Position numbers and translations under genes: made by a program | In this document: positions 48,519 to 50,364 of the stretch, in pieces | Layout of the letters: every line of letters starts with the position of its first letter | Position numbering within the stretch: position 1 is the stretch's first letter | DNA from: Listeria sp. PSOL-1 | Lineage (GTDB): Bacteria > Bacillota > Bacilli > Lactobacillales > Listeriaceae | DNA: 64,000 bases | Assembly (NCBI RefSeq): GCF_902806445.1 | Contig: NZ_LR760298.1 | Span: 434,001-498,000, forward strand | Reading direction: 5' to 3' | The notes under the pieces: model-generated | The model's input: only the letters and a program-made list of their open reading frames with translations | What the model was told of the DNA's origin: nothing | The model's database searches: none

Positions 48519-48610
48519 GCGCTACATTTGAACATGACAAACAAGCGACAGCGTTTGTATCTATAGGTAATGGAACCTATAAATACAAACGCTGTCGCTA
48601 ATTTATTTTA
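48519..48610. repeat. Dispersed 3'-UTR hairpin repeat, copy R6 (short form)
   Basis: Arms 48544-48567 and 48576-48599 are 24 bases long with a single mismatch (AGCGACAGCGTTTG... and ...CAAACGCTGTCGCT) around an eight-base loop. The left flank GGCGCTACATTTGAACATGA matches the flank of R4b. It separates the convergent DsbA-like and corA genes and is the only terminator candidate for both. Confidence 0.85.
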
Positions 48611-49552
48611 AAAGAACTTTCTACGCCAAAATACAAGCGCTAAAAGTCCAGCAATTCCAAAAGAGATTCCTAATGTTAAGACCCAAGCAAGTGGAGTATT
48701 CATAAATGGAAGTTTAACATTCATCCCGTAAAAACTAAACACCATTGTTGGAATCGTTAAAATGATCGTAAAGCTCGTTAGAAATTTCATAACGATATTC
48801 ATGTTATTAGAAATGATTGAAGCATAAGCATCCATCATCCCACTTAAGATATTCGAATGGACTTCTGCCATCTCAATTCCTTGACGGTTTTCAATGGTAA
48901 CATCTTCTAAAAGCTCTTGATCTTCTTCGTACATTTTAACAATATTTTGACGCATCATTTTATCAAGCACAAGCTTATTTGATTTAAGCGCTGTAACGAA
49001 GTAAACAAGGCTTTTTTCAATACCCATTAGATCATAAAGTTGTTTGTTTTTCATTGATTCGTGTAATTCTTTTTCGATTGTGTCTGTTTGGCGATTTAAA
49101 CGCTTTAAATGACGCAGAAATTGCGTTGAAATCATATAAAGAATTTGTAAAGCAAAACGAGTTTTCATGTGTGTGTAAAATCCTTTGATACGGCGCTTTA
49201 CAAACGATTGAATAATCGAGGAGTCAATCGTACAAATCGTAATAAAATGATCTTTTGTAATAATAATACCGAGTGGGATGGTTTCAAATGAAGCATAGTG
49301 AATATCATCTTCATCCACGATCGGAAAGTCGGAAATAATAAGGACAGAATCTGTGTCGTCATCGCGTTCGATCCGAGCACTTTCATCTTTATCTAGGGGA
49401 TCTTCTAAAAATTCGAGCGGAATATTGTATTCAGCCGCAAGTTGATTAATTTCTTCTGCTGTTGGTGCGACTATATTAATCCAAGAATTGCGTTCAACTT
49501 GTTCTAATTCTTCTAGTTTGCCATCTTGGTTAGATTTAAAAATTTGATGCAT
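48608..49552 (-). CDS. corA: CorA-family magnesium/divalent cation transporter
   Basis: A 314-residue protein with a large cytoplasmic N-terminal domain and two C-terminal membrane helices. The first ends in the signature motif FYGMNVKLPF, which forms the pore entrance. CorA homopentamers carry Mg2+ (some members Co2+, Ni2+ or Zn2+). An AAAGGAGG site precedes the ATG. A 29-codon leader ORF lies 37 bases upstream, suggesting translational or attenuation control by Mg2+. Confidence 0.94.
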   Translation of the reverse strand: MHQIFKSNQDGKLEELEQVERNSWINIVAPTAEEINQLAAEYNIPLEFLEDPLDKDESARIERDDDTDSVLIISDFPIVDEDDIHYASFETIPLGIIITKDHFITICTIDSSIIQSFVKRRIKGFYTHMKTRFALQILYMISTQFLRHLKRLNRQTDTIEKELHESMKNKQLYDLMGIEKSLVYFVTALKSNKLVLDKMMRQNIVKMYEEDQELLEDVTIENRQGIEMAEVHSNILSGMMDAYASIISNNMNIVMKFLTSFTIILTIPTMVFSFYGMNVKLPFMNTPLAWVLTLGISFGIAGLLALVFWRRKFF

Positions 49553-49560
49553 GATGATAA

Positions 49561-49764
49561 CCTCCTTTTTTTGATCTATAGGCTAAGATCACACGCTAGA
49601 GTAGAAATGCGTGGAATCAACTATTTTTAGCCTTCGATGTGGTTCAGGTTCGCTTTGATTTATCTGGACTTCTTCCACGATTTCACACTCCTTTTTACAA
49701 ATAAATTCGTTTGCAACTTTACTATTATAACCATTTTAACTGTTTTTGTACATGACTATTTTAA
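49561..49764 (-). promoter_or_regulatory. corA promoter and structured leader
   Basis: On the minus strand TGTACA, 17 bp, TATAAT is followed about 46 bases later by the leader ORF. Three helices can form in the leader RNA. A: CGTGGAA at the ORF start with TTCCACG (49610-49616). B: AGGCTAA (49627-49633) with TTAGCCT (49580-49586). C: CACGC (49609-49613) with GCGTG (49592-49596). C shares bases with A, so they exclude each other. No T-run follows, and the region does not match the M-box riboswitch. Confidence 0.55.
49589..49678 (-). CDS. Leader peptide ORF upstream of corA, MgtL-like
   Basis: 29 codons starting at GTG (49678), nine bases after AAGGAG, with its own promoter. The peptide begins MEEVQINQ, contains SEPEPHRRLKIV and ends HFYSSV. 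The alternating Glu-Pro run followed by Arg-Arg-Leu-Lys resembles the Salmonella/E. coli MgtL leader (EPDP...RRRLKL, from memory), where acidic-proline codons destabilise ribosomes at low Mg2+ and switch on mgtA. A Mg2+ transporter gene directly downstream makes the same logic plausible here. No protein evidence is available; a chance ORF remains possible. Confidence 0.6.
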   Translation of the reverse strand: MEEVQINQSEPEPHRRLKIVDSTHFYSSV

Positions 49765-50364
49765 AGCGAGTTTGTAAAGGGGTAAAAGAGAAGCGAACAC
49801 AACTTTAATTTGGCGTTCAAGTTCAGTGCCATTTGCTAATAATTGATCAGTTGCTGAGAACTTTTTACCAACTAAAAATTCCCCTTTTTTTATATCTTTA
49901 AAACGCATCAGCGCTTGCTCAAGTTCACTGCTGTGTAGTGGGTAGGTTTTTTTTACAGTGTGATCTTTAGACAAAACGTAATCCTGTGGTAGCTTTTTAA
50001 AGAGTGCTAGATTATTTAAAAATTGGGAAGTGATGTTTATCCGATTTTGATTTTCATAAATAAAAGCAAGCCAGACGAATAAATAATCATCGTATAAACC
50101 AACTTGAAAATGGGGGTGTTTTTTATAGCCACGCTTATCACTTGAAATGGCGAACCAAGTACTTTCTGGCGGGTTAACAGAGCGTCTGGCGTGGCGTGCG
50201 ATATGTAGATGCATCTCATCCCCGAGTTTGAGACTTAAGTAATCGGTAAGTGTTTGCCCAAGTGCTTGGAATTTTGGTTGAATTTCTGTTTGAATGCCTT
50301 CCATGCGTGCTGTAAGACCCTCTATATTCATTATTTTAAAATCTTTTGCAGTGAAACCTTGCAT
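49756..50364 (-). CDS. DUF1054 family protein (YktB-like)
   Basis: A 202-residue soluble protein starting MQGFTAKDFKIMNIEGLTAR, with HLHIARHARRSVNPPESTW and FAISSDKRGYKKHPHFQVGL, typical of UPF0637/DUF1054. The function is unknown. I start at the ATG at 50364, seven bases after GGAGG; the ATG at 50388 lies upstream of that site. It is co-directional with corA but separated by the corA promoter. Confidence 0.88.
   Translation of the reverse strand: MQGFTAKDFKIMNIEGLTARMEGIQTEIQPKFQALGQTLTDYLSLKLGDEMHLHIARHARRSVNPPESTWFAISSDKRGYKKHPHFQVGLYDDYLFVWLAFIYENQNRINITSQFLNNLALFKKLPQDYVLSKDHTVKKTYPLHSSELEQALMRFKDIKKGEFLVGKKFSATDQLLANGTELERQIKVVFASLLPLYKLALK

Follow-up and report, generated by a model that had tools for sequence, protein, structure and literature searches.

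An acidic-proline leader ORF and competing RNA helices upstream of corA in Listeria and other Bacilli

The corA locus and its leader

The window, i.e., the whole 64-kb stretch of DNA analysed, belongs to a genome (G000) that was placed with Listeria because the closest named CorA loci are those of Listeria species, at no more than 92%–93% identity. The reverse strand carries corA and a leader with a promoter and a short upstream open reading frame (uORF), as follows:

48608..49552 (-): corA, a CorA-like Mg2+ transporter of 314 aa (Pfam PF01544, E 1.2e-55)
49561..49565 (-): core of the corA Shine-Dalgarno (SD) sequence, GGAGG
49553-49717 (-): corA leader, ca. 165 nt, from a sigma-70-type promoter to the corA start
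49589..49678 (-): uORF of 29 codons with a GTG start and a TGA stop, peptide MEEVQINQSEPEPHRRLKIVDSTHFYSSV
49640..49651 (-): E-P-E-P codons, uORF codons 10-13, motif [ED]P[DEG]P
49688..49694 (-): uORF SD sequence AAAGGAG, the consensus of the leader alignment
49724..49729 (-): corA promoter -10 hexamer TATAAT, conserved among Listeria leaders
49747..49752 (-): corA promoter -35 hexamer TGTACA

The promoter (TGTACA-17-TATAAT) has a constant position across Listeria leaders, in which the -35 hexamer is kept as TGTACA or TATACA (TTGATA in Brochothrix), and transcription would be expected to start near 49717. Because this promoter separates corA from a DUF1054 gene upstream on the same strand, and because the first long ORF downstream of corA lies on the opposite strand, corA is probably monocistronic, forming its own transcription unit without its neighbours. 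A pattern scan found no intrinsic terminator in 49500-49850. The promoter, good ribosome site and 29-codon ORF named in the original prediction were all found in the sequence; a short ORF with a good ribosome-binding site precedes the gene of a Mg2+ transporter.

The uORF peptide opens with M-EEVQINQS-EPEP-HRRLK. Among SD-preceded small ORFs of 15–70 codons sampled from 400 kb of the same genome, none of 718 had [DE]P[DEG]P in the first 16 residues, and the only one of 128 SD-preceded small ORFs with the motif in the 64-kb window was the corA uORF itself. MgtL has an RRRLK tail, and the original prediction likened the SEPEPHRRLK stretch to MgtL. The acidic-proline part of this likeness stood, as that motif is conserved, whereas the RRLK tail was absent from the other leaders compared, in which PHRS, PHQ or PNPR is found instead. 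The resemblance of RRLK is therefore rejected as MgtL-like and is probably due to chance, since it was seen in no other compared leader; homology to MgtL was not found beyond EPDP, i.e., in the RRRLK tail.

Distribution of the motif-bearing uORF across Bacilli

An intact motif-bearing uORF was found before corA in all 36 Listeriaceae genomes, Brochothrix included (30 loci and six genomes fetched later), with [ED]P[DEG]P located 24–27 nt past the uORF start and with DPGP as the version in one Listeria branch. In family f40, which comprises 41 genomes in all (six of these outside the loci counted), 34 of the 35 loci examined had the motif-bearing uORF. A sequence-only model (R1) covering the uORF start, the motif and RNA segment 2 (see below) was built from 33 of 41 non-redundant leaders. 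Leaders with uORF and motif were present in 77 of the 79 genomes of family f37 with a close CorA, a count that is partly circular as many f37 leaders went into R1. The model had 79 matches at E <=2e-6 in this family, of which 77 were on the same strand as, and 69–214 nt upstream of, the CorA match; the other two were in G331, where the downstream gene reads as corA by eye, and in G416, an incomplete genome in which the match sits on a short contig. Outside Listeriaceae, EPDP occurs in Priestia taiwanensis and DPDP in Neobacillus massiliamazoniensis, for example. The downstream gene was corA in all five families with the full motif (f1, f7, f37, f40 and f43).

In total, the motif was present in 140 and absent from 49 of the 189 loci surveyed; the 140 include same-genome repeats, and 41 remain at <85% leader identity. 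The 49 motif-less loci consist of 42 from a class-wide CorA search, one paralog (L175), L254, the loci L237, L251 and L252, and two from Terrilactibacillus. In the class-wide search, 74 genomes besides G000 matched and 48 further loci were read (L112-L159); the motif was missing in 42 of these and present in six, L113 among them. Likewise, the 14 paralogous CorA loci of Listeriaceae (L160-L173) lacked any SD-preceded ORF bearing [DE]P[DEG]P. Apart from the paralogs and the 42 class-wide loci, the exceptions without the motif were L055, L056, L237, L251, L252 and L254. Of these, L055 and L056 (Terrilactibacillus) have STPEG in place of EPxP and keep the uORF and the pairings 1:1' and 2:3 described below. 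L254 precedes the second corA copy of genome G329 and has a degenerate uORF motif, EPEL, the first copy having EPEP.

The R1 model matched the window genome once. In the class-wide search, 10 of the 23 rows were corA or DUF1003 leaders and the other 13 were weak (E 0.001 to 0.01), and the f37 search gave 11 rows above E 2e-6, one of which was L254. Three other matches above this threshold, L320, L323 and L324, lay in or before other genes, looked chance-like by eye and were rejected. Phylum-wide, five of 398 genomes matched, with two known leaders (G000 and G131) and three short matches (L361-L363), and the motif was absent from the short matches L361 and L363. The scope of the original prediction (Listeria corA) was too narrow: at least five families of this class have the element, and some DUF1003 genes are preceded by related leaders.

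All four Pro codons occur at both Pro positions of the motif in the 41 leaders, and the acidic positions are encoded by GAA, GAG, GAT and GAC, apart from one Lys and one Gly. The motif starts at codon 6–12 in all 41 leaders, and at codon 10 in the window leader. As the 41 leaders were found using a motif pattern that fixes both Pro, the invariance of Pro in this set is partly a result of selection; the samples free of motif selection are the 36/36 Listeriaceae genomes and the 34/35 f40 loci. Coding conservation of the acidic-proline codons, the test that the original prediction had proposed for itself, came out clearly in its favour: the motif-bearing uORF is conserved, the controls gave 0/718, and the motif, which is under coding constraint, lies among the first 30 residues.

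Alternative pairings and predicted access to the corA ribosome site

The leader RNA contains four segments, the first with its own partner (1'), which can pair in alternative ways:

49672..49692 (-): segment 1, AGGAGTGTGAAATCGTGGAAG, SD and start region of the uORF, pairs with segment 1'
49627..49633 (-): segment 2, AGGCTAA, immediately after the EPEP codons, 5' side of the anti-sequestering hairpin
49597..49617 (-): segment 1', ATTCCACGCATTTCTACTCTA, falls within the loop and the inner stem of 2:3
49609..49613 (-): CACGC, 5' side of the inner stem in hairpin 2:3, overlapping segment 1'
49592..49596 (-): GCGTG, 3' side of the inner stem in hairpin 2:3
49580..49594 (-): segment 3 (anti-SD), GTGTGATCTTAGCCT
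49549..49563 (-): segment 4, AGGTTATCATCATGC, SD and start codon of corA, closed by segment 3

Both pairings of the original prediction are present. CGTGGAA/TTCCACG forms the middle of a longer helix, 1:1' (-22.0 kcal/mol in the window leader), and AGGCTAA/TTAGCCT is the base of the hairpin around CACGC/GCGTG (2:3, -20.4). A third helix, 3:4 (49594-49580 with 49563-49549, -15.3 kcal/mol), was overlooked; it would close corA and supply the off state. Segment 3 serves both partners, with TTAGCCT (49586-49580) pairing with segment 2 and GTGTGAT..TAGCCT with segment 4. Two exclusive states result, i.e., 1:1' with 3:4 (corA closed) and 2:3 (corA open). The four segments can be drawn in every leader of the set, and most Bacillaceae-like leaders have a GRGGAAGTC-like segment 2 past the motif, a CTTCCTC-like segment 3 and GAGGAGG as segment 4. 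The folding energy of the whole leader was equalled by 10 of 200 shuffles and was set aside as weak evidence.

When partners were swapped among the 41 leaders, the mean for the own partner was lower than that for swapped partners in 1:1' (-23.5 vs. -17.4), 2:3 (-28.7 vs. -19.0) and 3:4 (-16.3 vs. -14.7), and the own pairing was reached by 0 of 20,000 permutations for each; the p-values come from related leaders and overstate independence because the leaders share kinship. The own partner ranked first in just 6, 12 and 4 of the 41 rows for 1:1', 2:3 and 3:4, respectively, which may be caused by strong GC-rich binders and by arms shared among relatives. Swaps were also confined to groups (two of the 41 leaders belong to none), and the permutations out of 20,000 that reached the own pairing for the same three helices then numbered 3, 0 and 16 in Listeriaceae (11 leaders), 6, 0 and 6257 among f37-like leaders (22) and 1697, 33 and 29 in f40 (six). 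Given that 6257 and 1697 permutations reached the own pairing, helix 3:4 in f37 and helix 1:1' in f40 are unsupported by the within-family swap.

Synonymous recoding that kept the peptide (100 versions per leader) gave mean z values of -2.4 (1:1'), -2.9 (2:3) and -1.4 (3:4), with z below -1.64 in 26, 34 and 19 of the 41 leaders, respectively; for helix 3:4 of the window leader, z was just -0.6. In the two Terrilactibacillus corA leaders, the values for the three helices were -3.3, -2.4 and -0.6 in one and -3.1, -2.3 and +1.2 in the other. Mutually exclusive SD-sequestering and anti-sequestering helices were thus found, with 2:3 well supported and 3:4 less so. The corA starts used were assigned by script and are possibly off by a few nucleotides in some loci.

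Column covariation of 2:3 in f40 was mixed. The pairing percentage, the score and the number of double-change cells (43 vs. 26 expected) were reached by none of 500 shuffles, whereas the counts of pairs with double changes and of different pair types were reached by 457 and 498 of 500, and the structure slid by one column had 44 or 47 double-change cells and nearly as high a score. The covariation signal in the other three tests was weak or absent, the scores of 1:1' in f40, 2:3 in f37 and 1:1' in f37 being reached by 41, 46 and 276 of 500 shuffles, respectively. Slid structures paired clearly less in all four tests (35%–62% of cells vs. 74%–83%). The check on stem covariation that the original prediction had called for was therefore answered in part: partner swaps and recoding favour the competing structures, whereas column covariation is not decisive.

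Partition-function folding of the 41 leaders gave a mean probability of an open corA SD of 0.13 for the free RNA and 0.31 with the uORF start covered. The mean was 0.22 when the region from the start through EPxP was covered, and 0.09 both for a ribosome held on EPxP and for one located directly beyond segment 2. We discarded a scenario that placed the ribosome on the uORF stop, since the blocked region frequently overlaps the SD, forcing it to be counted as open. Start occupancy raised SD opening by >0.005 in 31 and by >0.1 in 24 of the 41 leaders. Synonymously recoded leaders were open at 0.24 when free and 0.22 with the start covered, and the change in SD opening differed between native and recoded leaders (Wilcoxon p 2.9e-7, calculated across related leaders). 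The rise in native leaders, set against the recoded ones, indicates that the switch behaviour resides in codon choice. The window's own leader ran against expectation, as its SD opening fell from 0.46 in the free RNA to 0.35 with the start occupied. A simple stall, with a ribosome sitting at EPxP, was rejected because the SD stays shut in folding; for the same reason, we favour ribosome drop-off while the uORF start is occupied. Overall, the set mean supports opening on abortion with the start occupied; the held ribosome and the window leader do not.

Proposed control of corA and comparison with known systems

A real, conserved regulatory leader precedes corA. We consider it probable (about 0.62) that this leader works as a translational attenuator of four segments, driven by a leader peptide that destabilises ribosomes. 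In the free RNA, 1:1' and 3:4 would form and hide the corA SD, a state predicted for the set and weak in the window leader. A ribosome initiating on the uORF would cover segment 1, and if that ribosome or a preceding one aborted at the Glu-Pro-Glu-Pro codons, segment 2, lying just downstream, would remain free to pair with the anti-SD segment 3, opening the corA SD. Ribosomes that read on would disrupt 2:3, allowing 3:4 to re-form and close corA. Opening would thus need both initiation on the uORF and exit of the ribosome before segment 2. By analogy with MgtL and MgtQ, low Mg2+ might be the trigger that raises abortion, and EPxP might abort Gram-positive ribosomes as well; the purpose would be to produce more CorA under Mg2+ shortage. 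The most plausible inference from the CorA target, the EPDP of MgtL and the four-segment logic of mgtQ is that Mg2+ and ribosome destabilisation are involved.

Instead of Mg2+, the same RNA switch could report the capacity to translate proline/acidic motifs, as set by EF-P, by ABC-F factors (e.g., YfmR) or by charged tRNA-Pro. Two prolines occur in the motif together with acidic residues, EttA acts on the EPDP of MgtL (PMC11282234), and EF-P and YfmR of B. subtilis are described as easing hard motifs. The motif prolines are non-adjacent, however, and corA lies downstream in all five full-motif families, although DUF1003 does so elsewhere; we regard this signal as unlikely to be the one in place of Mg2+, and the two are not exclusive and can coexist. 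Simple translational coupling, in which completing the uORF near the corA SD aids initiation on corA and EPxP lowers it, appears improbable. The uORF stops mostly lie about 12–36 nt before corA, and in L005 the stop and the corA start overlap (TGATG), possibly reflecting positive coupling. However, the stop varies in position (from about -57 to +47), and the recoding tests indicate a competing hairpin, 2:3, that coupling would render superfluous. In L009, the uORF extends 40 nt into corA, unlike most other leaders.

An RNA of the riboswitch type that binds Mg2+, with the ORF being incidental, would account for the strong alternative pairings, and a gamma-proteobacterial corA motif was once proposed as a riboswitch candidate (PMC6429828). 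Yet the start codon, the SD and the E/D-P-x-P codons are kept amid synonymous changes, the arms are simple with no conserved ligand core seen, and neither the window nor the leaders of 12 loci had an Rfam match at gathering score, the lone sub-threshold match at the leaders being on the opposite strand (E 0.23); we consider this explanation very improbable. The conserved N-terminal motif might also belong to a small protein acting in trans. This is scarcely credible in view of the divergence of the residues past the motif and of L205 and L241, in which the frame is shifted after the motif (by eye) and arms 2 and 3 persist. The arms kept despite the frame shift argue for action in cis and make a role for the C-terminal peptide unlikely.

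MgtB is a P-type ATPase. The closest likeness in logic is to mgtQ-mgtB of the Salmonella mgtCBR operon, where, according to PMC8092293, acidic codons of a short ORF are taken to abort translation and the alternative stems are 1:2 with 3:4 vs. 2:3, the last of which frees the RBS of the Mg2+ transporter gene mgtB; abortion would have the same effect in the corA leader. In contrast, mgtQ is an 8-residue ORF inside an operon of enterobacteria (PMC8092293), whereas the corA leader, known from sequence, has at least 29 codons with EPxP, is probably monocistronic with its gene and precedes another transporter family in Bacilli. MgtL-mgtA of E. coli and Salmonella shares an EPDP near the N-terminus and a Mg2+ transporter as target; EPDP is its destabilising motif, causing drop-off at low Mg2+, counteracted by EttA (PMC11282234). 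Unlike the corA leader, MgtL acts through Rho-dependent transcription termination, has its motif at residues 2-5 and serves an ATP-driven importer, MgtA (PMC11282234); here the helices sit on the corA SD.

Enterobacterial corL-corA likewise has a uORF before corA, competing RNA structures and uORF translation opposing corA (PMC11552253, PMC6429828), an opposition that we propose here as well. However, acidic/Pro residues are scarce in corL, which acts through Rho (PMC11552253), and the gamma-proteobacterial corA motif is reported in Gammaproteobacteria only (PMC6429828). On these descriptions, the corL leader and the gamma-proteobacterial motif are different elements from the Bacilli corA leader (PMC11552253, PMC6429828). 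The M-box (ykoK) riboswitch, RF00380, is comparable in exerting cis control of Mg2+ genes in Bacilli. It had no match at the corA locus; an M-box was found in 25 of the 36 Listeriaceae genomes, and none was detected in the window's genome (2.1 Mb, 95.9% complete), in which the corA leader may be the sole Mg2+-related cis element of these two kinds. In one case (L355), the M-box match lay on the strand of an ORF that looks P-type-ATPase-like by eye. In a literature search covering open-access titles and the starts of abstracts, with subscription journals largely outside, no report of an EPxP uORF before a Bacillota corA was among the papers listed. Leader-peptide Mg2+ switches of Salmonella are known already, and the EPxP leader before Bacilli corA is apparently undescribed as far as these searches show.

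The class-wide R1 search also matched leaders of DUF1003 genes in G070, where the downstream gene is DUF1003 (PF06210), in G227 and, weakly, in G087. A related uORF motif was present in five of the 22 DUF1003 loci examined (30 fetched), with the following recoding z values for 1:1', 2:3 and 3:4:

L325: DUF1003 leader, motif VPEP; z -3.9, -1.6, -1.0
L340: DUF1003 leader, motif NPDP; z -2.5, -2.2, -1.2
L328: DUF1003 leader, motif TDPSP (by eye); z -1.6, -2.9, -1.0
L326: DUF1003 leader, motif MDPEP; z -1.0, -2.2, -0.2
L339: DUF1003 leader, motif VDPEP; z -0.4, +1.0, -2.0

Based on these z values, the likeness to the corA leaders is good in L325, L340 and L328, partial in L326 and poor in L339; the last was rejected as a full equivalent, since the motif is there but hairpin 2:3 failed the test (z +1.0). 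Acidic-proline uORFs before genes for DUF1003 membrane proteins hint at a signal shared with corA; among the papers listed in an open-access search on DUF1003, magnesium and corA, none mentioned DUF1003. In a wider and more tentative reading, for which we would give somewhat less than even odds, the E/D-P-x-P leaders of several Bacilli families would act as a Mg2+ sensor of Gram-positive bacteria that the ribosome itself reads. Its conserved segmented switch, needing both uORF initiation and abortion, would control corA and, elsewhere, DUF1003 genes, would imply a Mg2+ role for DUF1003, and would either have arisen independently of MgtL or represent an ancient common solution.

If the proposal is true, Mg2+ sensing through ribosome stability would extend beyond enterobacteria to Bacilli, in a version that uses another transporter family and acts at translation initiation. 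Control of corA would be tied to EF-P and ABC-F factors, and the leaders would provide a natural set for probing whether acidic-proline nascent chains destabilise Gram-positive ribosomes. They would also offer a functional clue to DUF1003.
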